A DNA stretch of 64,000 nucleotides, from positions 7,343,501 through 7,407,500 of the forward strand of contig NC_092578.1 of the NCBI RefSeq assembly GCF_037975245.1. Direction: 5' to 3'. The position numbers and the translations under genes are program-made. Below the pieces are notes generated by a model, which was not told the DNA's origin, searched no databases, and was given only the letters and a program-made list of their open reading frames with translations. Positions 3 through 61,305 of the stretch are shown piece by piece; position 1 is the stretch's first letter, and each line of letters begins with the position of its first letter. The stretch is from Apostichopus japonicus (lineage: Eukaryota > Echinodermata > Holothuroidea > Aspidochirotida > Stichopodidae).

Positions 3-836
3 GATTCATTGTGGGATTTGATTGCATCAATGAAGAAATGCCATGTAACCCTGACAAAGCTAGGTTATACAGGTGACCTCAACAGCACTTCTAATCTCCT
101 GAAGGTACAGGACCTTTTACCCACACACCTACAATCTGCATGGGTAAACAATGCTCATGACATACTAACCAAAGAGAAAAGGGAACCAACATTCAATGAT
201 TTGTTGGGCCTACTTGTCAGGCATGCTGAAGTATCATCCACAATGTTCGGTAAGTACCTAGCTCAATCAAGGTCCTCAAACAACAGGAAGAGACAAGGTC
301 AAGGACATGTTAATGTGAGGTCCAACCATATTAGCAGCAAACCAATAAAATGTTTCATCTGTGATGGGGAACATAAAATCTACACATGTAAAGAGTTCCT
401 AGCAGGTGAGTATGAACAGAGGGTAAATATGGTTATGTCCAAGAGACTATGTTTCAGGTGTTTGATGCCCGGACACATCGGTTCTAGATGTCAAAGGAAG
501 TGGAGATGTGAATGTGGATCCGAGAAGCATCATAATATGCTTCACCCTCCTGCTGAAGAGGTAAAGGTAAGTTCAGGAGTCGTGTCTAGTGGTAATAAGG
601 TCTACATGAGAATACTGCCAGTGACTGTAATGGCAAGAAATGGTGTGAAGGTGAACACATTAGCTCTGTTAGACCATGGCTCGGACACAAGCTTGTGCTC
701 AGACAACCTGAAGAAGAAACTTGGCATCAAGGGTGAACGTAAAAGTACACCTCGTGTACGATCCATGGGAACATGGAAAAGGAAGGATGGCGGTTTAGGC
801 TTACTGTGGAAGGTAAGAACGAGCATGAACCCATGA
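3..836 (+). CDS. BEL/Pao gag C-terminus and start of protease (partial)
   Basis: The frame is already open at the left edge, so this is an internal part of gag and its first ATG is not the true start. About residues 115-170 carry zinc-knuckle-type cysteine clusters (CFICDGEHKIYTC and CFRCLMPGHIGSRC) followed by a further CECG/H cluster, the nucleic-acid-binding part of the capsid protein. Around residues 215-240 the sequence LLDHGSDTSLCSDNL looks like the DUF1758/pepsin-like protease active site. It reads D-H-G rather than the usual D-S/T-G. The frame ends at a TGA at 834-836, soon after the protease starts, while the pol frame is already open from 773 in another phase. The sequence therefore needs a frameshift or has suffered an indel. 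Confidence 0.8.
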   Translation, partial: DSLWDLIASMKKCHVTLTKLGYTGDLNSTSNLLKVQDLLPTHLQSAWVNNAHDILTKEKREPTFNDLLGLLVRHAEVSSTMFGKYLAQSRSSNNRKRQGQGHVNVRSNHISSKPIKCFICDGEHKIYTCKEFLAGEYEQRVNMVMSKRLCFRCLMPGHIGSRCQRKWRCECGSEKHHNMLHPPAEEVKVSSGVVSSGNKVYMRILPVTVMARNGVKVNTLALLDHGSDTSLCSDNLKKKLGIKGERKSTPRVRSMGTWKRKDGGLGLLWKVRTSMNP

Positions 837-3800
837 ACGTTGAGTTCCTGACGGTGCCAAAGATTCCAGCCTCCGAGGAAGGTATTCCCACAATGGAGGA
901 ATTGAGCAAGTGGGAACACTTGAGGCTGATACCGTGGGAAGACCATTGGGCCAAGGAGGTTGGTATCCTAATCGGTGCAGATTCTCCCCAAGCATTCTGG
1001 GTCTTGGAAGAAAAGAAAGGTAAGCCAAAGGACCCCTACGCCATAAGGACCCCACTTGGATGGTCCGTTATGGGACCTGGGGGAAAGGGCTGCAAGAATG
1101 GCTACTTCAACAGAATTCAGGTAAGTAACCAGCAGCTGCTTGACGAGGTGCAAAAGTCTTGGGCTATTGAGAATAGCGGCCTTTACGAAAGGCAAGACTC
1201 AGTTCAAGACTCTAGAGCTCGTAAGGTCATGGAGTCTACCATGAAGAAGACAGAAGATGGTCACTATGAAATGGGACTGCTATGGAAAAACGACAATCAT
1301 GACATGCCGTTGAATAAAGCAATGGCAGAGTCGAGATTAGAGTCTTTGAAAAGGCGATTATCTTCGAACAAAGACCTGCATGCTAAGTATACTGACGTCA
1401 TGGAAGGTTACATCAAGCAGGGGTATGCAGAACCAGTGGTAAACAAGGGCATCCCAGGTAATGTATGGTACCTACCCCACCACCCTGTTGAGAATCCCCA
1501 TAAGAATAAAGTTCGAGTTGTATACGATTGTGCAGCTCGGTTTGCTGGAACATCTCTGAATGATCAACTACTTAAGGGACCGGATCTTATGAATGATTTG
1601 CTTGGTGTCCTCCTTAGATTTAGGCAGGGAAGGGTAGCTATAGTCTCTGACATAGAGGCAATGTTCCACCAAGTCAAAATGATAGAACCAGATCGGGATG
1701 TTTTGAGATTCCTTTGGTGGGCAAATGGCGACATGAAAACATCGCCAAGGGAATACAGAATGTGTGTACACCTGTTTGGTGCCACTTCCTCCCCGTGCTG
1801 CGCAGGAAAGGCCCTGAAGCAGACAGCCGATGACAACGAGCTAACCAACAGAGACAAAGTGGGCAAACAGGCACTAGAGATCATGCGCGATGGATTTTAT
1901 GTCGATGACTGTTTAGGTTCAGTTCAGAGCGTGGAGGAGGCGATAAAGGTTTTACAGAGGCTCTCGACTATCCTCAAAGAAGGAGGATTCAGGCTCACCA
2001 AGTGGTTGAGTAATGAGAGGGCCGTTCTGGCCAGTGTCGATGAACATGAAAGAGCTCCGTCGGTGCGACTATCCGTGGACCGACTGCCTACAGAGAGAAC
2101 ACTAGGCGTTTGTTGGAATGCAGAAAGTGACAGTTTCACATTCCAGCTAACTTTGAAAATGAGCCCAACGACAAGAAGAGGACTTCTTTCAGTGACAAGT
2201 TCTGTCTTCGACCCACTGGGGATGGCCTCTCCATTTGTAATGATAGCTAGGTCTCTTCTGCAAGAAGTTTGCAGGAGAGGTGCTGAATGGGATCAGCCCC
2301 TGACAGATGAAGAGCAAGGTAAGTGGAGTAAGTGGCTTCACTACACTAAAATATTATCACAGGTAAGTGTTCCTAGGTGGTTCAAATTTGATGCCATAAC
2401 AGAGGCACAACTGCACATATTCTGTGATGCCTCCGAGAAGGGCTATGCTGCCGTAGCCTACTTTCGCGTAGAGCAGCCAGCTGGAGGCCACAACGTAGAG
2501 TTTGTGCTTGGTAAGTCTAGAGTCAGTCCCTTGAAGCATATAACTATTCCTAGGTTGGAGCTTATGGCAGCAGTGTTAGCAGCAACCCTTGATAGTACAA
2601 TCAGAAGGGAAATTAGACACTCTTTTGGAGACACCACCTTCTGGAGTGATTCCATGATAGTACTGAGTTATATCAGGAATGAAAACAGGCGCTACAAGAC
2701 CTTTGTGGCGAACAGAGTAGCTAAAATATTGAGTGTTTCCAGCTGTCAACAGTGGAGACACGTACCGACTAATGTGAACCCTGCGGACGGAGGTTCGAGG
2801 GGGGCCCATGAATTAGAGACGTGGTTGAAAGGCCCAGACTTCCTGCCCAAGGAGGAAGCATTTTGGCCAGCATCCAAATTCGATGCCGATGATGACGAGC
2901 AGTTGGCACACGATCTAGAAATCAAACGGTCAGTGATTGTCCAACAGGTAGGTGTGAAACAGAGAAACACGGGCTACGACAGTCTAATATCGACAATGAA
3001 AGGTAAGTTTTCATCCTGGAAAAAGTTGACAAGGGTCTTGGGATGGGTCTTACGATTTGTGAAATCTCTTAAATCCAAAGTGAAGCATCAGCCCACTGTG
3101 AACGGCAACTTACTTGTGTCAGAAATTACCGAGAGCGAGACGATGATATTGTCATGCGAACAGAAACAATCATTTCCAGAATGGCAGTCGGATAAAAGAC
3201 TGAATAGTTTGAGACCAGTCCTCCTAGGACAACTACTTAGGGTAGGAGGCAGACTGGACAACGCCTGTATCGACTATGATGCTAAACATCCGATAATTCT
3301 AGCTGGTAATGGTGAAATTACTAGAATGCTGATTTGGCACTACCACCTGAAGGTTGGACACAGTGGATGGTCAACCACGCTGAATGCTCTTCGGGAAAGA
3401 TTCTGGATTCTGGCAGGTAGGTCAGCAGTTAAAGCCATGTTGAGAAACTGCGTAACATGTAAAAGACACAATGCTAGGCGAGAGGAACAACTTATGGCAT
3501 CTCTGCCTGAGGAGCGTGTCACCGCAGACAAACCACCGTTTACCTATGCTGGGCTTGATTATTTCGGTCCCATAGATGTCAAGCAGGGCCGATCTTCAAT
3601 CAAAATGTATGGATGCATTTTCACTTGTCTTGCATCCAGGGCTGTCCACATCGAAGTTGCCAACAGTTTGAATACGGACTCATTCATTAACGCGTATCAA
3701 AGATTCGTAGGGAGACGTGGAGATCCCGCTAAAATATACAGCGACAATGGGTCGAACTTTGTCGCTGCCCAGAAAGAGCTTAAGAAGGCCTTGTACGAGA

Positions 3801-4444
3801 TGAATCAGGACAGAGTAGAGGAAGTTCTTCACACACAAGGGGTCGAGTGGCACTTCAACCCTCCCTCCGCCAGCCATTTTGGAGGTGTTTGGGAACGTTT
3901 GATACGGTCAGTGAGGAAGGTCCTCCATGGTATCCTTAAACAACAAAGTGTGGACAAAGACGTACTACAAACAGTGTTAACAGAAGTAGAAAATATCCTG
4001 AACTCGAGGCCGATAACAGACCTATCACCGGAGGCACACGACGAGGAGCCGTTGACGCCTAATCATCTACTCCTGATGAGAAAGGGAGCCACAGCGCCAA
4101 TAGGTAAAACTGGGGTGTATAGTAAAAGACGATGGCACCAAGCTCAATACCTATCTTCGCTCTTCTGGACCCGATGGAAGAAAGAGTATCTTCCACTGCT
4201 TCAGAAAAGACACAAATGGACGATACCAAGGAAGAATGTACAGGTAGGTGATATAGTACTGTTAGTCGACGAAGTGTTGCCCAGAGGGAGATGGTCAATG
4301 GGTAAAGTAATCACGGTGTACAGAAGCAAAGATGGCAAGGTGAGAAGTGTCGATCTCAAGGTAGCTGGCGGGACTTTGAAACGTCCTATTACAAAGTTAT
4401 GTGTAATATACAGAGAAGTGATTGATGGAGGAGCAAAAATTTAA
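773..4444 (+). CDS. BEL/Pao pol polyprotein: RT, RNase H, integrase
   Basis: This is one uninterrupted frame of 1223 codons. In order it shows a peptidase-A17-type region, RT with SDIEAMFHQV and the catalytic FYVDD box, RNase H with FCDASEKGYAAVAYF, ELMAAVLAATL and FWSDSMIVL, and a linker. An HH-CC integrase zinc finger follows (HYHLKVGHSG ... CVTCKR), then the DDE core (YAGLDYFG, SDNGSNF, GGVWERLIRSVRK) and a DUF5641-like C-terminus with WHQAQYLSSLFWTRW and VGDIVLLVDE. All expected acidic catalytic positions are visible. The ATG at 773 is only the first ATG in frame; the product is probably made as a fusion with gag. The coding strand has many GGTAAG words, treated as a separate finding. Confidence 0.9.
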   Translation: MEKEGWRFRLTVEGKNEHEPMNVEFLTVPKIPASEEGIPTMEELSKWEHLRLIPWEDHWAKEVGILIGADSPQAFWVLEEKKGKPKDPYAIRTPLGWSVMGPGGKGCKNGYFNRIQVSNQQLLDEVQKSWAIENSGLYERQDSVQDSRARKVMESTMKKTEDGHYEMGLLWKNDNHDMPLNKAMAESRLESLKRRLSSNKDLHAKYTDVMEGYIKQGYAEPVVNKGIPGNVWYLPHHPVENPHKNKVRVVYDCAARFAGTSLNDQLLKGPDLMNDLLGVLLRFRQGRVAIVSDIEAMFHQVKMIEPDRDVLRFLWWANGDMKTSPREYRMCVHLFGATSSPCCAGKALKQTADDNELTNRDKVGKQALEIMRDGFYVDDCLGSVQSVEEAIKVLQRLSTILKEGGFRLTKWLSNERAVLASVDEHERAPSVRLSVDRLPTERTLGVCWNAESDSFTFQLTLKMSPTTRRGLLSVTSSVFDPLGMASPFVMIARSLLQEVCRRGAEWDQPLTDEEQGKWSKWLHYTKILSQVSVPRWFKFDAITEAQLHIFCDASEKGYAAVAYFRVEQPAGGHNVEFVLGKSRVSPLKHITIPRLELMAAVLAATLDSTIRREIRHSFGDTTFWSDSMIVLSYIRNENRRYKTFVANRVAKILSVSSCQQWRHVPTNVNPADGGSRGAHELETWLKGPDFLPKEEAFWPASKFDADDDEQLAHDLEIKRSVIVQQVGVKQRNTGYDSLISTMKGKFSSWKKLTRVLGWVLRFVKSLKSKVKHQPTVNGNLLVSEITESETMILSCEQKQSFPEWQSDKRLNSLRPVLLGQLLRVGGRLDNACIDYDAKHPIILAGNGEITRMLIWHYHLKVGHSGWSTTLNALRERFWILAGRSAVKAMLRNCVTCKRHNARREEQLMASLPEERVTADKPPFTYAGLDYFGPIDVKQGRSSIKMYGCIFTCLASRAVHIEVANSLNTDSFINAYQRFVGRRGDPAKIYSDNGSNFVAAQKELKKALYEMNQDRVEEVLHTQGVEWHFNPPSASHFGGVWERLIRSVRKVLHGILKQQSVDKDVLQTVLTEVENILNSRPITDLSPEAHDEEPLTPNHLLLMRKGATAPIGKTGVYSKRRWHQAQYLSSLFWTRWKKEYLPLLQKRHKWTIPRKNVQVGDIVLLVDEVLPRGRWSMGKVITVYRSKDGKVRSVDLKVAGGTLKRPITKLCVIYREVIDGGAKI

Positions 4445-19700: not shown

Positions 19701-22700
19701 AAACTTTTTACGGAAAAAAAAGGGAATATTGTTCGCAGAGTTAAGAATTCTCTCAAAAAATGTCCCTAAAAGGTTTAGCATCACTTACAAAACAATCGTA
19801 CAGCACTTGTTCTTCGGGAGTGGCCTGGTTACCCTTGACGATGGCATTCTGTACATCCGTTGCACACGTTACTGATGCAAAGCCGTTCTTCATTGCATCG
19901 TAATTCTGCAGCATAGATTTTAGAATTAGAATTAATATCATTGAAAAGCATGACGAAGAATAGACTCACCAATAGCTGTTTAATACAACAGAGGCTCAAT
20001 GTTGTTTGGTTATTTTCTTCATTATGTTTTGTTGAACAGCTCTATTATTACTGGTGATATGACAAAATCAAATTGAATAAAGCTTTTCTGAAAATAACTG
20101 AATGAGTTATGATCAGATTAAGGTGGACGGACCACAGGGACATAATGAAGTATTACCACTCAACCCTAAAAGCATTTTAATAGGAGGTCATTTTAGGTTA
20201 TAGATATAAGGTCATTTCAGGTAATTGATATAAGGTCATGTCAGGTACTAGCTATGGGTCATTCCAAATATTAGCTATAAGGTAATTTCAGATATTAGCT
20301 ATAAGGTCATTTCAGATATTAGCTATAAGGTCATTTCAGGTATTAGCTATAAGGTCATTTCAGGTACTAGCTATATAGGGTCATTCCAAGTATTAGCTAT
20401 AAGGTTATTTCAGGTATTAGCTATAAGGTCATTTCAGGTATTAGCTATAAGGTAATTTCAGGTATTAGCTATAAGGTAATTTCAGGTATTAGCTATAAGG
20501 TAATTTCAGGTATTAGCTATAAGGTAATTTCAGGTATTAGCTATAAGGTAATTTCAGGTATTAGCTGTAAGGTAATTTCAGGTATTAGCTGTAAGGTCAT
20601 GTCAGGTACTAGCTATAGGATCACTCCAAGTATTAGCTATGTCATTTCAGGTACTAGCTTTGAGGTTATTCCAAGTTTTAGTTTTAAGGTCATTTCATGT
20701 ATAAGCTATAAGGTAATTTCAGGTTGAGCTATAAGGTCATTTCAGGTATTAGCTATAAGGTCATTTCAGGTATTAGCTATAAGGTCATTTCGGGTATTAG
20801 CAATATCGTCATTCCAAATGTTAGCTATAAGGTCATATCAGGTATAAGCTATAAGGTCATTTCAGGTATTAGCTATAAGGTCATTTCAGGTATTAGCTAT
20901 AAGATCATTTCAGGTATTAGATATAAGGTCATTTCGGGTACTAGCTATAGAGGGTCATTCCAAGTTTTAGTTTTAAGGTCATTTCAGGTATAAGCTATAA
21001 GGTAATTTCAGGTTGAGCTATAAGGTTATTTCAGGTATTAGCTATAAGGTCATTTCAGGTATTAGCTATAAGGTCATTTCGGGTATTAGCAATATCGTCA
21101 TTCCAAATGTTAGCTATAAGGTCATATCAGGTATAAGCTATAAGGTACTTTCAGGTATTAGCTATAAGGTCATTTCGGGTATTAGCAATATCGTCATTCC
21201 AAATGTTAGCTATAAGGTCATATCAGGTATAAGCTATAAGGTACTTTCAGGTATTAGCTATTATGTCCCCTCAGTTTATATTTCAGCAATGAGGGTCATT
21301 TCAGTTCAATCCATTATCCCTTCAGGAGGAATATTTCACATCTGTGAAACATTGAAATCTGTTTTACTTGGATTAATAATTGATGCTTGGATAAGCGACA
21401 ACTTTTTCCTGTAATAGTAATCACTTATATGCATCAAACAAGCTTGATACAAAAACTGAGTGCACGAGCAGGTGTGTGACCGCACAAAGAAAATACATCC
21501 CCATCCATCGAAACAGGAATTTAACTTACGCCACGAATGAGGGGAATGATCTGTCCAAGGACATCTACAAACTTGATGATGATTTTCTTTATTTCCTCCA
21601 TGTAGGCGCTCTCGGAATTTTGGAGGGCGAACGCAGTGTGGTTCATGGTGATGATCCTCTGAAACCTTGTCTGCTCAGCCGTCTTCACGGCTTTGAAATA
21701 CTCCCGGTCTGCTTTGTTGATGGCTTCCGACGTCTTGCCATGTTTCGTGCTCAGCTGCGGAAGGAAAAACCAGAACTCTTAAGTCACAGGGAAGAGAAGA
21801 ATATTAAAGGAAAATGGCAGGCCGTGCACAAACACACGTTTCTGTGGAAATCGAACCCACAAAACTTTTGATCTTTATTTTTAAAGGGTTTTGAAACTTT
21901 TCCCCTCGATATTCTCCTCAATCCTTTGTTCCCGTTGTTATCGTGGGCACTCTAATTTTGAGTGCCGACATTTTATCATTAACCTGCCTTTACTTTTGGG
22001 ACCGAATCACTCTGCATGTTTGGAAAGGAATGAAGATAACAGAGAGTGAGAAAAGGGGCAAGGGGGTAAGGGAGAGAAGGACAAATGGGGAGATGGGAGG
22101 GGAGTAAGAGCAAGGGAACCTACCCCCCCTCAAATTTGGAGAAGAGAGTGAGTGTGTATATATCTCTATGCACAATGACTCTAACCATGACGATACAGCT
22201 TGAACTGTTAGTATACATGTGTCTTATTGACCAACGTACGTATCTATGTCCATCTTCGTCTGTGACCGTCTCTGTCCAGTATTAAAGTGTCAGTGAATAC
22301 TAGCTCATTACTTACAAGGGTGCGTGTACTCACCTTACTCCTTTCCTTCTGTGATAGCTCTTTGCCTTTATTGTTCTTAGTTGCCTCGGATCCCGCTGCT
22401 GTGCTTTCAAACTCCTTTGTCTTACTCAGCAAGTTCTTTTGAGCCTGTTGTGAAATGAAATTAAAGTGGCCATGACACGAAAATTTCAACTTCCTGTCAT
22501 TTTGGGATCCATCTAAGCATGCTCTCTAGAACATATATCAACCATTCTGCCAGTTAAAGATGAACGACAGTGATTTTTCACCATCGACGAAAAAATACGA
22601 TTTTATTCATGAGTATTCTAGTTGGTTTCCATTTTACACATGTGAAAATTCAAGTCAATCCGATGATGGGAAAGGCTTAAAAAAAATTCCTAAACTCGTT

Positions 22701-35100: not shown

Positions 35101-35405
35101 ATATATATAAGTACTGTATCTCTTTCGAGATCCGGCTTTAGGAATCACAAATGACTTTGAGTTGGATAGAATCATGTTTGATCTCTAGAGTAAGGCAAAT
35201 ATGTCACAAAAACAGAACTAGTATTGTTCGTTACAGGTGACGAACGCCTACAGTGGAATTACGACCTTCCTTACCGACCAATCAGAGTCCATAGCCTAGT
35301 TGGTTATGGTGTCTGCATGTAAAGCGGGAGGCCCAGGTTCGAATCCCGGTGGAGGCTGGAAGTTTTTTCACTGTTCTAAATTTTCCAACTCATTACATTT
35401 TCAAT

Positions 35406-45445: not shown

Positions 45446-45570
45446 TTCAACCTTGTGTGTCAAGTTAAGTAACATTAAATATGCGATATCCCAAATGGAA
45501 TCAGATTTTTCTTAGCTGTTTGGGGGAGGTGTTTTTAACTCTTCCATATAGAATTATAGACCAATCATGA

Positions 45571-45771
45571 CGGTACTTTTAAGAAAGGGCCGCCCAGGAA
45601 AGAACCTGGGCACGAAAACCAAACTACTGAACGACTGATCCGCTTCTAACCCCAGTCCCCTTGCATCGGGACTGTGACTGTGTGATCATCATCAGGTGTG
45701 CATCACCATTCCCATCGAAAGGTAACAGATACTACACATAATCTTAGCCAAAAGGCCGAGAAGCGAGAAGC
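45571..45771 (-). mobile_element. U2-snRNA-headed retroposon with target duplication
   Basis: Reading the minus strand from 45771, the sequence CGCTTCTCGGCCTTTTGGCT, AAGATTA, TGTGTAGTATCTGTT follows the first 45-50 nt of U2 snRNA, including the branch-site-pairing GTAGTA. After that it leaves U2: no Sm site and no U2 stem-loops III-IV were found, and the body (GATGCACACCTGATGATG ... CCCAGGTTCTTTCCTGGG) is unlike U2. GACCAATCATGA-GGT flanks both sides (45559-45574 and 45772-45787; one mismatch), a target duplication typical of LINE-driven retroposition. A shorter relative at 8161-8250 shares the non-U2 part. Confidence 0.65.
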
Positions 45772-46184
45772 GACCAATCATGATGGTTGGATTTGTGTCT
45801 CCTTTAAGTACACTATATACTAACATCCTCTTCATTGTGTTTGTAACCCCTTACGTCCGGTAGCACAGACATTCTTTCACTTCACGATGAAGTTATCTCA
45901 TCGGAAAGTGAACAATTCATTTGCCGAATAAAGCTAGGAAAACACACACACATACACATACAAAGTTGTCGTGAAAAACCTTCATACTGCTACACGTGAC
46001 AAGCACGAAAATGCATCATTTAGCTTAATAATTAAGTTTGATCTGTTTGCCATCATGCCAAAATGTTTGCATATTCATGAGCAACAAAAGTTCAAATCTA
46101 TCATTGAAAAGTTATTCGCTCTTTAAACACCCCAACGCCTTGCAGTCTTCCCCTACACCACATCCCCTCTCCACCCCTCACACA

Positions 46185-53450: not shown

Positions 53451-54509
53451 ATGACGTCACAGCCCGAGATTTTCGGTAGCTTTTTACCACCAAAGGACGA
53501 GCTAGCAGAAAGACATTTCAAATTCGAAAGCTACACGCAGAGGTGTATCCTAGCAAGTATTTTCATTCTTGTGTTTTTGACTGGAACCATCGGTAACAGT
53601 CTGGTGATTTTATCTGTCTTATTTAGCAGAAAGTTGAGAACATTTACCAACGTTTTTGTGGTCAACTTGAGTGCCTCGGATTTGCTCATATGTTGTACGC
53701 TCTCTATGAATATAGTGGCATTGCTGAGCCGTGATGGGTTTCCGTTACCAGAGTGGATATGCGCGTGCGCAGCTTTCTTGGCCTTCACAGGAGCAGGGTG
53801 TAGCATCTATACCCTTGCCGCTATCGCGTTTAGCCGCTGGGCAGTGATAACGCGCAGCATCAGTACCCAGAGGAGTTGGTTCACGAGCAAGAAATTGGTT
53901 GCCATGGTAACATTCACGTGGATCTTTCCAGCTCTGATTGCGTTTCTACCGCCTTATCTTGGGCTAGGGACCCTCGGTTACGCCGAGAAATATGGTACAT
54001 GCTCGCACAAGACGTCCAACGAACTGTCGGATTATTACTCTCTACTGCAAGGTGTCCTGTTTTATCCCATTCCTTTGGTAATCATTATCGTCTGCTACTA
54101 TCAGGTGTTTTCATTCGTCAGGTCACACACTAAACATATCATAGATCAGCCAGATATCTCCTCTACCTCTGGCCAAGCTAGTCAAAATCACTTGAACTCT
54201 AAAAATCAACTGACGACCAAAGAGAGATTAAGCAAACGACAAATAGAGATCACCAAAAATCTCTTTTATGTGGTTCTGGCCTTCCTCATTTGCATCACAC
54301 CGTTTGGTGTGAGCTTAATGATCCCACCTAGCGATCCAGTCATTCCTTGGACTTCGGCTTTACTTCTTTTCAATAGCTGTGTGAATCCGATCATTTATGC
54401 GACCAAACATCCTAACTTCAAATCGATATTCCGTCAGATAATCACTTGCCGCTGGGCTGAGATTCCAGAACCTTCCCAGTTTCTTAAATTATTGAGATGT
54501 GGAAAGTAA
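53451..54509 (+). CDS. Rhodopsin-family G-protein-coupled receptor, single exon, 352 aa
   Basis: There are seven hydrophobic segments. Landmarks are GNSLVI (N49, TM1), NLSASDLL (D77, TM2), C104 before TM3 with C184 in loop 2 for the usual disulfide, SRW at 128-130 in place of DRY, W157 in TM4, prolines 206/208 in TM5, CITP at 281-284 in place of CWxP, and NPIIY at 312-316. The N-terminus is short with no signal peptide, loop 3 (about 225-268) is polar, and a short tail with Cys333 and Cys350 could be acylated. The closest impression is the moody/GPR84/melatonin-like orphan receptors that are expanded and often intronless in echinoderms; the ligand is unknown. ATG has A at -3 and an in-frame stop upstream. 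The gene looks intact. Confidence 0.9.
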   Translation: MTSQPEIFGSFLPPKDELAERHFKFESYTQRCILASIFILVFLTGTIGNSLVILSVLFSRKLRTFTNVFVVNLSASDLLICCTLSMNIVALLSRDGFPLPEWICACAAFLAFTGAGCSIYTLAAIAFSRWAVITRSISTQRSWFTSKKLVAMVTFTWIFPALIAFLPPYLGLGTLGYAEKYGTCSHKTSNELSDYYSLLQGVLFYPIPLVIIIVCYYQVFSFVRSHTKHIIDQPDISSTSGQASQNHLNSKNQLTTKERLSKRQIEITKNLFYVVLAFLICITPFGVSLMIPPSDPVIPWTSALLLFNSCVNPIIYATKHPNFKSIFRQIITCRWAEIPEPSQFLKLLRCGK

Positions 54510-57401: not shown

Positions 57402-58020
57402 CAAATTTGGCATGGAGTTTCTTTTCGACCTATCTATTGATTTTATACGTGGAACCCACTTGATCGGCTCCGATTTTCCAAGATGGCGGCCAAAATCCAA
57501 GATGGCCGCCAGAAAAAAAGGAAATGTCATATATCTGGCTGTAAAAATCGGAGACGAACAAATGAGGGGTCAATTAAGGTGTTTCCGTGGTTACTGAAAC
57601 AGATGATGGTCATGGCATGTTGCTCGAGTAAGCCACTTCCAAGATGGCTGCCAAAATCCAAGATGGCCGCCAGAAAAAAGGAAATGTCATATATCTGGCT
57701 GTAAAAATCGGAGATGAACAAATGAGGGGTCATTCAGATGTTTCCGGGGTCACTGAAACAGATGATGGCCATGGCATGTTGCTCGAGTAACCCACTTCCA
57801 AGATGGCGGCCAAAATCCAAGATGTCCGACAGAAAAAAGGAAATATCATATATCTGGCTGTAAAAATCGGAGATGAACAAATGAGGGGTCAATAAAGGTG
57901 TTTCCGGGGTCACTGAAACAGATGATGGCCAATGCATGTTGCTTGGGTAACCCACTTCCAAGATGGCGGCCAGAATCCAAGATGGCCATCTGGAAAAAAA
58001 AAGGAAATTTCATATATATT
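57402..58020 (+). repeat. 160-bp tandem repeat with CAAGATGGCGGC motifs
   Basis: Units start with AAGATGGCGGCC at 57480, AAGATGGCTGCC at 57641 and AAGATGGCGGCC at 57800 and 57960, a period of 159-161 bp. Each has a second inverted-type AAGATGGCCGCC about 20 bases on, then ATATCTGGCTGTAAAAATCGG and GGGGTCACTGAAACAGATG. A lead-in AAATTTGGCATG (57401) also occurs at the outer edge of the inverted copy near 61300. Confidence 0.9.
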
Positions 58021-58390
58021 CATTCCCCAGACCCCTGTGCCCTTTACTGATTGGGACCATCAAACCTTCCGTCCTCAAACGTGTAAATGAAACCAGACTA
58101 GAACCCTGACTATATGTTATGGCTGGTATTCTAATTGTGTCACTTTGGCTCAGGAAGCCACTTAGGACTTATTGGGGAACTTTGAGGTGTGATCGACCGT
58201 GGAAAGACACTGTCGCAAAGCCCGTTATTATATGGGAGTAACGAGTGTCATGTAAGACTGATTACATTGAGTCAACTATATAATAGGGTAACTTCAGGGA
58301 AAACCGACCAAATGTGAATACCGACTCATTGGAAGATTTTGTACGATTGTGCACCCTTCATAAACACAACGCCAATGCTGCTAACTTGAC

Positions 58391-60060
58391 TTGATCGAGT
58401 TTGTTAAAGTTCGTGATTTGCCATGTGCACTGGTCTCCTTGGACCAGGAGAAGGCCTTTGACATGGTAGAACACGACTTTCTGTTCAGAACCTTAGAGTC
58501 CTTCGGATTGAACTCAGTGTTTATTCGTTGGGTCATGTTACTAAATAAGGACGTCACGAGCATGGTCACTGTTAACGGATTAACTTCTGGTCCCTTCCCG
58601 GTTCGAAGGTTCGAGTTCATCAGGGTTGTCCCCTCTCCCCGTTGTTGTATGTTCTCTTCAGCAAAACGCTTAGTACCTCGCTGGACAGATGCTTAGGTTT
58701 TCGACCCTTCAATGTACCGGGTGGGGCTAGAGTTACAAGCGTGCAATATGCCGATGACGTCACTTGTATTTTGTCAGACCTCGCCTCCTTCAAGCCTTTA
58801 TTGAAGGTTTTGGCCACCTTCCAAGAGGCTACTGGTGCCAGACTTAGCAAGTCCAAGACCAAAGGGCTGCGTTTAGAAGGTTGGCGCGGCCAATCCCTCC
58901 CGTTCGATGCTACTTGGTCAGATGTCATGATCAGGGTAAATGGCATCTGGCTAGGTTATGGTGCCCCCGAGGCCACCACTTGGGCCGAGAAGGCTGATCA
59001 GGTGGGGGCACGGCTCGACACTTTTAGTCGGAGGTGGCTGTCCCTCCCTGGGAAGGTTACAGTTGTTAATCATTTTATTGTTCCTCTCCTTTGGTATCCT
59101 GGTACGGTGATCGCTGCACCGGATCATGCCTTGGTGAGATTGGAGAGGATCATTTTTGATTTCATTTGGGGAAAGCGCAAACCAAACCTTGTCAAAAGGA
59201 TCGTTCTGTAAAAGACCCCCTTGATCGGTTGGCTATAGTCCACTTACCATCTAAACTGCGCCTTTTCCTTTGAAAGGTGTGTTCGTTGCGTTTGAGAATC
59301 CTTCGTTTCCCTTTGCCTTTCTTGTTAGGTTCTGGTGTGGGTTTCTTTTTGGCCACCACTGGCCTGGATCCTTTTCCAATAACCGGCCAAACGCGACACG
59401 CCCCTCGGGGGTGTATACTCAGATTGGTGACTCACTTCATAGAGTCAAAGAGGTGGGCGGGCCAGATGTTCTGCTGAACGTGGCCCCCTCTGTGTTATGT
59501 TCAATGCCCGCACCTGTGTGCCCGTCGGGTTGCCAAACCGCCATCACTCCAGATGTGTGGCGGTCTGTGTGTTGTAAGTCACTAGATAGCCGTCTCCGGG
59601 ACTTGGCATGGAGGATTGCACATGGGGTTCTCATCACTAACCATTTTCGCCTAGTCAGGTGACGATTAGGTGATGGGATTTGTCAACATGTGGGCTGTGA
59701 GGCCATCGAGACTATGCAGCAACTTTTGCTGGAGTGTCCCTTTGTCCGGTTGGTGTGGGAATGATGGTTTCACGCCTTCGTTATTGGTGTTATTGGTTGC
59801 ACACTGTGGGCCATTATTAGTGATTTTGTTAAGGGATTTGCTGTTGTTGTTTGCCGCTATCATCAGGAGACACATCTGGAACAGCAGTTGCCGCCTATTT
59901 TTTGATGGGGACGTCTGGAGGGCCGAGGCTGTCGTCTCCCTCATGCAAAGTGACATAGGTTGCGCACGGCTTCCCGACACTGACTTCCGTAGACGCTGGC
60001 GCAAGCCTGTCGTCTACTATCGGGTCGGCGTTCCCCGGATGAAATTTGGAGTGAGTTAGT
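58391..60060 (+). pseudogene. Tx1/L1-type LINE reverse transcriptase, 5'-truncated and frameshifted
   Basis: RT blocks are readable over three frames: SLDQEKAFDMVEHDFLFRTL (58430s), TVNGLTSGPFPVRR, then after a shift LYVLFSKTLST, the QYADDVT active site (about 58746-58766), GARLSKSKTKGL, FIWGKRKPN, and at the 3' end LDSRLRDLAWRIAHGVL and ETMQQLLLECPFVRLVWE. The order and wording fit the Tx1/L1 group. The endonuclease domain is missing, the RQGCPLSP block is damaged and stops follow FIWGKRKPNLVKRIVL, so it is dead. Confidence 0.85.
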
Positions 60061-61084: not shown

Positions 61085-61305
61085 TGTTATATTGGCCGCT
61101 ATCTTGGTAATAGGTGACCCAAGCAACATGTCATGACCATCATCTGTTTCAGTGACCCCGGAAACACCTGAATTGACCCCTCATTTGTTCATTTCTGATT
61201 TCAACAGCCAGATATATGACATTTCCTTTTTTCTGGCGGCCATCTTGGATTTTGGCCGCCATCTTGAGAATGGGTGGCCCAAGCAACATGCCAAATTTAC
61301 ACTCG
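61085..61305 (-). repeat. Inverted copy of the 160-bp YY1-motif repeat
   Basis: The reverse complement shows AAATTTGGCATG, TTGCTTGGGCCACCCATTCT, CAAGATGGCGGCC, CAAGATGGCCGCC, and the ATATCTGGCTG and CACTGAAACAGATGATGG blocks: a little over one unit. Orientation is opposite to 57402-58020, so the LINE and its surroundings sit between inverted arms. Confidence 0.85.

Follow-up and report, generated by a model that had tools for sequence, protein, structure and literature searches.

In crocodilian SINEU elements, snRNA heads were reportedly gained repeatedly at the 5' end, mobilization is said to be carried out by a Tx1-type LINE, and insertion is reported to have occurred mainly in a Mariner transposon. 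An internal promoter is lacking in U1 and U2 genes, hence the puzzle of how snRNA-headed SINEs are expressed; SINEU heads are not known to contain an internal Pol III promoter either. A multicopy RNA gene is also the home of R2-type elements, which reside in 28S rRNA genes together with short derivatives formed from them by deletion and use the promoter of the gene by co-transcription. SINEU is given as a class name, with Kojima 2015 as its reference, in PMC5753468, and two LINEs, Keno (APE-encoding) and Utopia (RLE-encoding), are described as inserted before nt 39 of U2 in PMC4640811, which names frogs, fish, lancelet and hydra as hosts of Keno; the hosts it gives for Utopia include a starfish and two sea urchins. 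In the open literature, by title and start of the abstract, we found no paper on a U2-headed SINE in echinoderms or on SINEs in U2 genes.

The SINE of Apostichopus japonicus described here resembles SINEU in that its head comes from U2 (from U1 or U2 in SINEU) but differs in being found in an echinoderm, inside U2 genes that are its likely sources and at U2-like off-target sites, whereas SINEU is crocodilian and reportedly lies mainly in Mariner. The U2 insertion site of this SINE and of the accompanying A. japonicus LINEs is identical to that of Keno and Utopia, and LINE A, one of the A. japonicus LINEs, has an APE-type domain, as does Keno; Keno and Utopia are autonomous LINEs, whereas the body of the SINE measures about 150 nt and does not code for protein. 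With the R2-type elements it shares a multicopy RNA gene as home and, as we infer, use of the promoter of that gene by co-transcription, but its target is an snRNA gene, its body is its own, and it is also widespread outside the target.

The window, by which we mean the entire 64,000-nt stretch analyzed (C18:7343501-7407500), contains a 198-nt retroposon of this family on its minus strand (Table 1). A sequence-only reading had described a near-copy of the 5' end of U2 on this strand that switches to an unrelated body with the hairpin CCCAGG-TTCTTT-CCTGGG and is flanked on both sides by a 15-base word, and all of this was borne out: the head is U2-derived, similarity to U2 stops at the junction, the hairpin is present, and the flanking word is a 15-bp target-site duplication (14/15 identical). 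The extent given in that reading, 45559..45787, is corrected here to the element proper, the retroposon itself being real. The covariance search that it proposed gave a match of the Rfam U2 model confined to the 5' part of the element (45.3 bits, E 1.7e-7; the gathering score is 46), most of the remaining model being skipped.

Table 1. Coordinates of the U2-headed SINE copy in the window and of dispersed LINE relatives elsewhere in the genome
Feature	Position	Strand	Remark
U2-headed SINE copy	45574..45771	-	198 nt
GCTTCTC (7 nt) at SINE 5' end, repeating U2 nt 4-10	45765..45771	-	also in copy L012
U2-derived head (U2 nt 4-44)	45724..45764	-	U2 nt 4 = 45764, nt 44 = 45724
SINE body, without U2 similarity	45574..45723	-	3' end AAAAGTA
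3' hairpin GCCCAGG-TTCTTT-CCTGGGC	45592..45611	-	
Left target-site duplication GACCAATCATGACGG	45559..45573	+	
Right target-site duplication GACCAATCATGATGG	45772..45786	+	one mismatch
LINE relative L110	C18:7756350		
LINE relative L111	C13:14832600		
LINE relative L112	C11:475560		
LINE relative L113	C8:3937700		
LINE relative L114	C15:7600150		
LINE relative L115	C9:24946600		

Searches of the A. japonicus genome (671,581,487 bases, 35 contigs) showed that the element is not single-copy. The window element as query gave at least 43 matches with 89-100% identity (best 40 of 2103 candidates scored), and the interrupted U2 gene L060, discussed below, gave at least 50 (2738 first-look candidates). 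The copies are 191-198 nt long, non-coding, multicopy and non-autonomous, as is typical of SINEs. In the 30 loci aligned, the body is common to the copies, the flanks differ in most cases and many copies have target duplications of their own; L015-L018 and L027 have a single flank in common and are therefore copies of a larger repeat. Target duplications of at least 8 nt directly follow the element in 34/55 copies, again as in SINEs. The observation of a U2-headed SINE, distinct from a plain U2 pseudogene, is thus confirmed and its interpretation as a retroposon is supported; the comparison with LINEs for a common 3' tail, which the same reading had suggested, brought to light nothing longer than the final few bases. 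The head of the SINE consensus is identical to nt 1-45 of the U2 genes of the same genome, i.e., it is an snRNA head in the SINEU sense, and fits the U2 of this lineage because both read ATCATGTG, the local ATCATG variant included. The family majority sequence folds at -73.9 kcal/mol (z -4.76 vs 200 shuffles); 0/50 predicted pairs changed on both sides among the aligned copies, because these are too alike, and the fold is therefore an energy-based prediction.

An Rfam U2 search yielded 46 genes among the matches listed (best 46 of 40968 candidates scored), 42 of them on C16 (31.015-31.156 Mb), many at 645-bp spacing, and four on C15. In SINE-interrupted genes of the C16 array, the usual upstream sequence and U2 nt 1-45 are followed by the SINE body, inserted directly before U2 nt 39, and then by U2 from nt 39 onward. 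The resulting 3' junction, AAAAAGTA|TCTGTTCTTTTCAG, is present at seven exact places genome-wide, six in the C16 array and one on C20, with four weaker places of the same type on C5, C8, C10 and at C16:30606221 (up to 3 mismatches allowed; a reversed control pattern gave 0). Complete insertions in array U2 genes are found in L040/L061, in L060 and in the second SINE of L064, and the complete single copies (L040, L060, second of L064) have no second head and lie directly behind the U2 upstream region; in L060, 450 nt upstream are identical to those of an intact neighbor gene. The first SINE of L064 and that of L091 are 5'-truncated bodies with U2 nt 39-53 repeated (13-15 nt), duplications that show retrotransposition into U2. 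The L091 SINE sits behind a LINE A type end within one U2 gene; in L092, a complete SINE and a truncated one are stacked within a single gene; and at the C20 locus, L090, a decayed orphan U2 harbors a headed SINE that belongs to the same subfamily as the window copy. In the 84,029 bases of the ~155-kb array that were classified, 49 nt-39 junctions comprise 31 uninterrupted ones, six with LINE A/A2, six with LINE B and six with the SINE; neither the LINE end in L091 nor the more upstream of the two SINEs in L092 is included in these numbers.

When nt 1-191 of L060 were used as the query, 14 of the best 40 rows, L060 itself counted, were 100% identical over 191 nt, so that 13 dispersed places are letter-identical to an interrupted gene from U2 nt 1 to the last base of the SINE; nine further rows were 100% identical from nt 2, 3 or 4, and the other 17 were at 99%. 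Transcription is expected to start at U2 nt 1, and 31 of these 40 rows begin there, a figure to be read in the light of a ranking that favors complete copies. Twenty places were fetched with their flanks: 13 are exact from nt 1, six from nt 2 or 3 and one has a single change, so 19 exact or near-start matches were read in context. Among 17 more copies, nine differ by A50C alone, five by one other change and three within nt 1-3 only, and neither T43A (L040) nor T48C (L064, L092) is present in any of these 17.

A 25-position pattern for the junction, with two-fold degeneracy at three positions, matched 149 places genome-wide (control 0). Among the places listed, CCCTTCGGG is the commonest variant (more than half by eye) and is absent from all seven U2 insertions that the genome-wide junction search gave; beside it, CCCTTTCGAGGGG is another junction variant of a dispersed subfamily. 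The L064 variant CCCCTCGGG is also found at C2:21947678 and C17:18377427, and the T43A variant of L040 in the array only, again among the places listed; the one U2 insertion with the window's own variant is the decayed copy on C20. Of the four complete insertions in the array, the three besides L060 differ from it. The interrupted gene and the dispersed copies could descend from another, unsampled ancestor, since identity by itself gives no direction. A separate origin of the junction classes from different cleavage points (e.g., L016, with U2 nt 39-50 before GGGAATGG) is not claimed, because changes in a small hairpin loop explain the classes as well.

The target sites of the dispersed copies were compared in 55 loci (six repeated-flank loci were dropped from the set, leaving 61, six of which have no clean end). 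Positions +1 to +3 after the element are T in 41/55, C in 29/55 and T in 37/55, and TCT ranks first of the 64 trinucleotides there (107/165 vs 48.4 expected, reached in 0/20000 draws); A precedes the target duplication at -1 in 29/34. With the seven copies that have a SINE or U2-head flank left out, TCT still ranks first (92/144 vs 41.4, 0/20000) and A is found at -1 in 27/31, although this A may be the last base of the element itself. The dispersed sites have the consensus A|TCT, which forms the core of GTA|TCTG, the site in U2, and at L098 the insertion site reads GTA|TCTGTAACC; given this match, an enzyme specific for the U2 site seems to have produced the dispersed copies by acting off target.

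U2 nt 39 follows immediately on the 3' ends of LINEs A, A2 and B (3' flank TCTGTTCTTTTCAG), which places them at the insertion site of Keno. They have stop-free frames for ORF1 (410-510 codons) and ORF2 (1153-1162 codons). LINE A contains Exo_endo_phos (2.5e-11), RVT_1 (6e-36) and zinc-binding domains and is, like Keno, of the APE type, to which A2 and B are assigned by similarity to A alone (36-51% over the whole ORF2); ORF2 identity is 51% between A and A2 and 36-37% between either of these and B. In a search with the C-terminal part of A2 (best 92 of 1804 candidates), all six rows at 100% and all five at 50-51% map to C16:31.007-31.165 Mb, in or beside the U2 array, and two rows at 44% are in the array; one of the latter, L117, ends at the U2 nt 39 site and represents a fourth LINE lineage there. 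The seven rows at 43% are dispersed. More distant relatives of A2 (31-33%) are numerous among the same 92, mostly on C17, C11 and C16, and form dense clusters at C17:15-26 Mb, C11:13-14 Mb and C16:26-31 Mb, many of them with open frames of ~1150 codons. Six of the 43% relatives (L110-L115; Table 1) have A-rich 3' ends; ARAGORN tRNA genes lie just 3' of two of the six (Leu at L111, two Gly at L114), L112, L113 and L115 resemble, by eye, tRNA-containing repeats, and these relatives possibly represent a tRNA-gene-targeting LINE. Positions 58388-59761 of the window hold a LINE remnant with 21-46% similarity to the U2 LINEs, depending on the segment.

Comparison of LINEs A, A2 and B with the SINE consensus revealed the U2 head and a few short matches at chance level, and ten further stretches 3' of LINE ORF2 matches, of which L118 and L119 may stop short of the true LINE end, had no SINE match at E 0.5. 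AAAGTA alone is common to the 3' ends of the SINE and of LINEs A, A2 and L117, and because the ends match in little beyond it, these LINEs are no more than candidate partners.

L008, L103 and L120 begin with an incomplete U2 head that breaks off at nt 37 or 38, after which a full head and body follow; the joint in L103 and L120 is GTAGTA|TCGCTT. A search for this double-head pattern gave ten places, seven in a cluster on C2 and one each on C17 (L120), C4 and C9 (control 0); the C4 place is a single U2 head with chance similarity. Double heads are expected if a headed RNA entered U2 at nt 38 and was then retranscribed from the U2 promoter. Tandem SINE copies were noted at C11:20354627-20355219, C5:22560163-22560907, C3:23599889-23600450 and C16:38409884-38410250, some parted by a target duplication and some joined through GTA, and the cut site seems to be restored with every insertion. 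At L121 (C2:26232380-26233330), a satellite consists of 37-nt units, each corresponding to about U2 nt 2-38, and ends in the decayed start of a SINE body; it may have grown from a multi-headed SINE.

The sequence-only reading had asked which promoter would drive a SINE headed by U2. No internal Pol III promoter was found in the head: 496 and 460 of 500 shuffles had A-box and B-box matches, respectively, at least as good as the best ones in the element, which are thus no better than chance. The interrupted U2 genes are candidate source loci, and we consider it probable, judging from the sequences compared here, that this is a SINE family that has U2 genes as its source, is transcribed from the U2 promoter and is inserted by a U2-site endonuclease. 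The body is present in U2 genes behind intact upstream regions, identical copies are dispersed through the genome, the duplications are independent, and the targets are U2-like. In the proposed scheme, the body would enter directly before U2 nt 39 by target-primed reverse transcription, at the site of the U2-specific LINEs; the upstream Pol II promoter of U2 would then produce RNA from U2 nt 1 through nt 1-45 and TCTGTTCCCTTAGGGAATGG into the body; and the protein of some U2-site LINE would copy this RNA into other U2 genes or into A|TCT look-alike sites, where the copies, having no promoter, would be dead ends. The window copy would be one of these. The U2 promoter is put forward as the driver because the 450 nt upstream are identical, copies begin at nt 1 and no Pol III boxes rise above chance; the direction from U2 gene to dispersed copies is likewise what we infer.

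A competing account holds that head and body were joined once by template switching, as happened in other chimeric retroposons, that expression comes from read-through or from some other promoter, and that the copies in U2 genes play no part as sources but are by-products. The double-headed L008, L103 and L120, together with the orphan L090, do show headed RNA entering U2 at or near nt 38, and the commonest listed variant, CCCTTCGGG, has no U2 home in the assembly. Against this stand the insertions in L040, L060 and the second SINE of L064, with no second head and right behind the U2 upstream region, the array copy that is letter-identical to 13 dispersed places (best 40 rows), copies that begin with U2 nt 1, an element with no Pol III boxes above chance, and the fact that a double-headed dispersed copy is the very product expected of a source inside U2; we regard this account as rather unlikely.

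The two remaining alternatives concern the nature of the family. Spread of a U2-derived satellite or non-mobile tandem family by recombination would accommodate the tandem copies on C11 and C5 and the 37-nt U2-head satellite on C2, but it is very improbable, and for the dispersed copies it is ruled out, given the independent duplications of at least 8 nt after the element in 34/55 of them. An ordinary U2 retropseudogene or processed U2 fragment would account for the match to U2 nt 1-45 and for a target duplication, but the U2 match stops at the junction and the non-U2 body common to many copies rules this out, leaving it a practically negligible probability.

Taking U2 genes as the source, we tentatively propose, as an idea that is about as easily wrong as right and perhaps slightly more so, a two-phase SINE with its home in U2 genes, under the Pol II snRNA promoter, and export elsewhere, the U2 head serving as a homing arm. 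The head of the cDNA would pair with the 5' end of the target U2, so that the insertion would add no second head and would keep the promoter in register, and each new U2 copy would at once be a new source gene. The last bases of the SINE, GTA, would rebuild the cleavage site, leading to stacked insertions in U2 and to tandem arrays elsewhere, and the SINE and at least four LINE lineages would share an array of a few dozen U2 genes. With U2 genes as its source, this would be a SINE that parasitizes an essential splicing gene in a niche shared with site-specific LINEs. Since coordinates can be given for the candidate source loci, the promoter question becomes directly testable.

The window contains several other features. 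A 1223-codon open frame at 773-4444 is by eye similar to a BEL/Pao-type polyprotein, and a 352-codon open frame at 53451-54509 resembles, also by eye, a seven-transmembrane receptor. Tandem repeats are found at 20161-21334 (24-bp period) and at 57476-58050 (~160-bp period, with an inverted copy at 61093-61293), and a tRNA-like match of 40 bits is located at 35285-35357.
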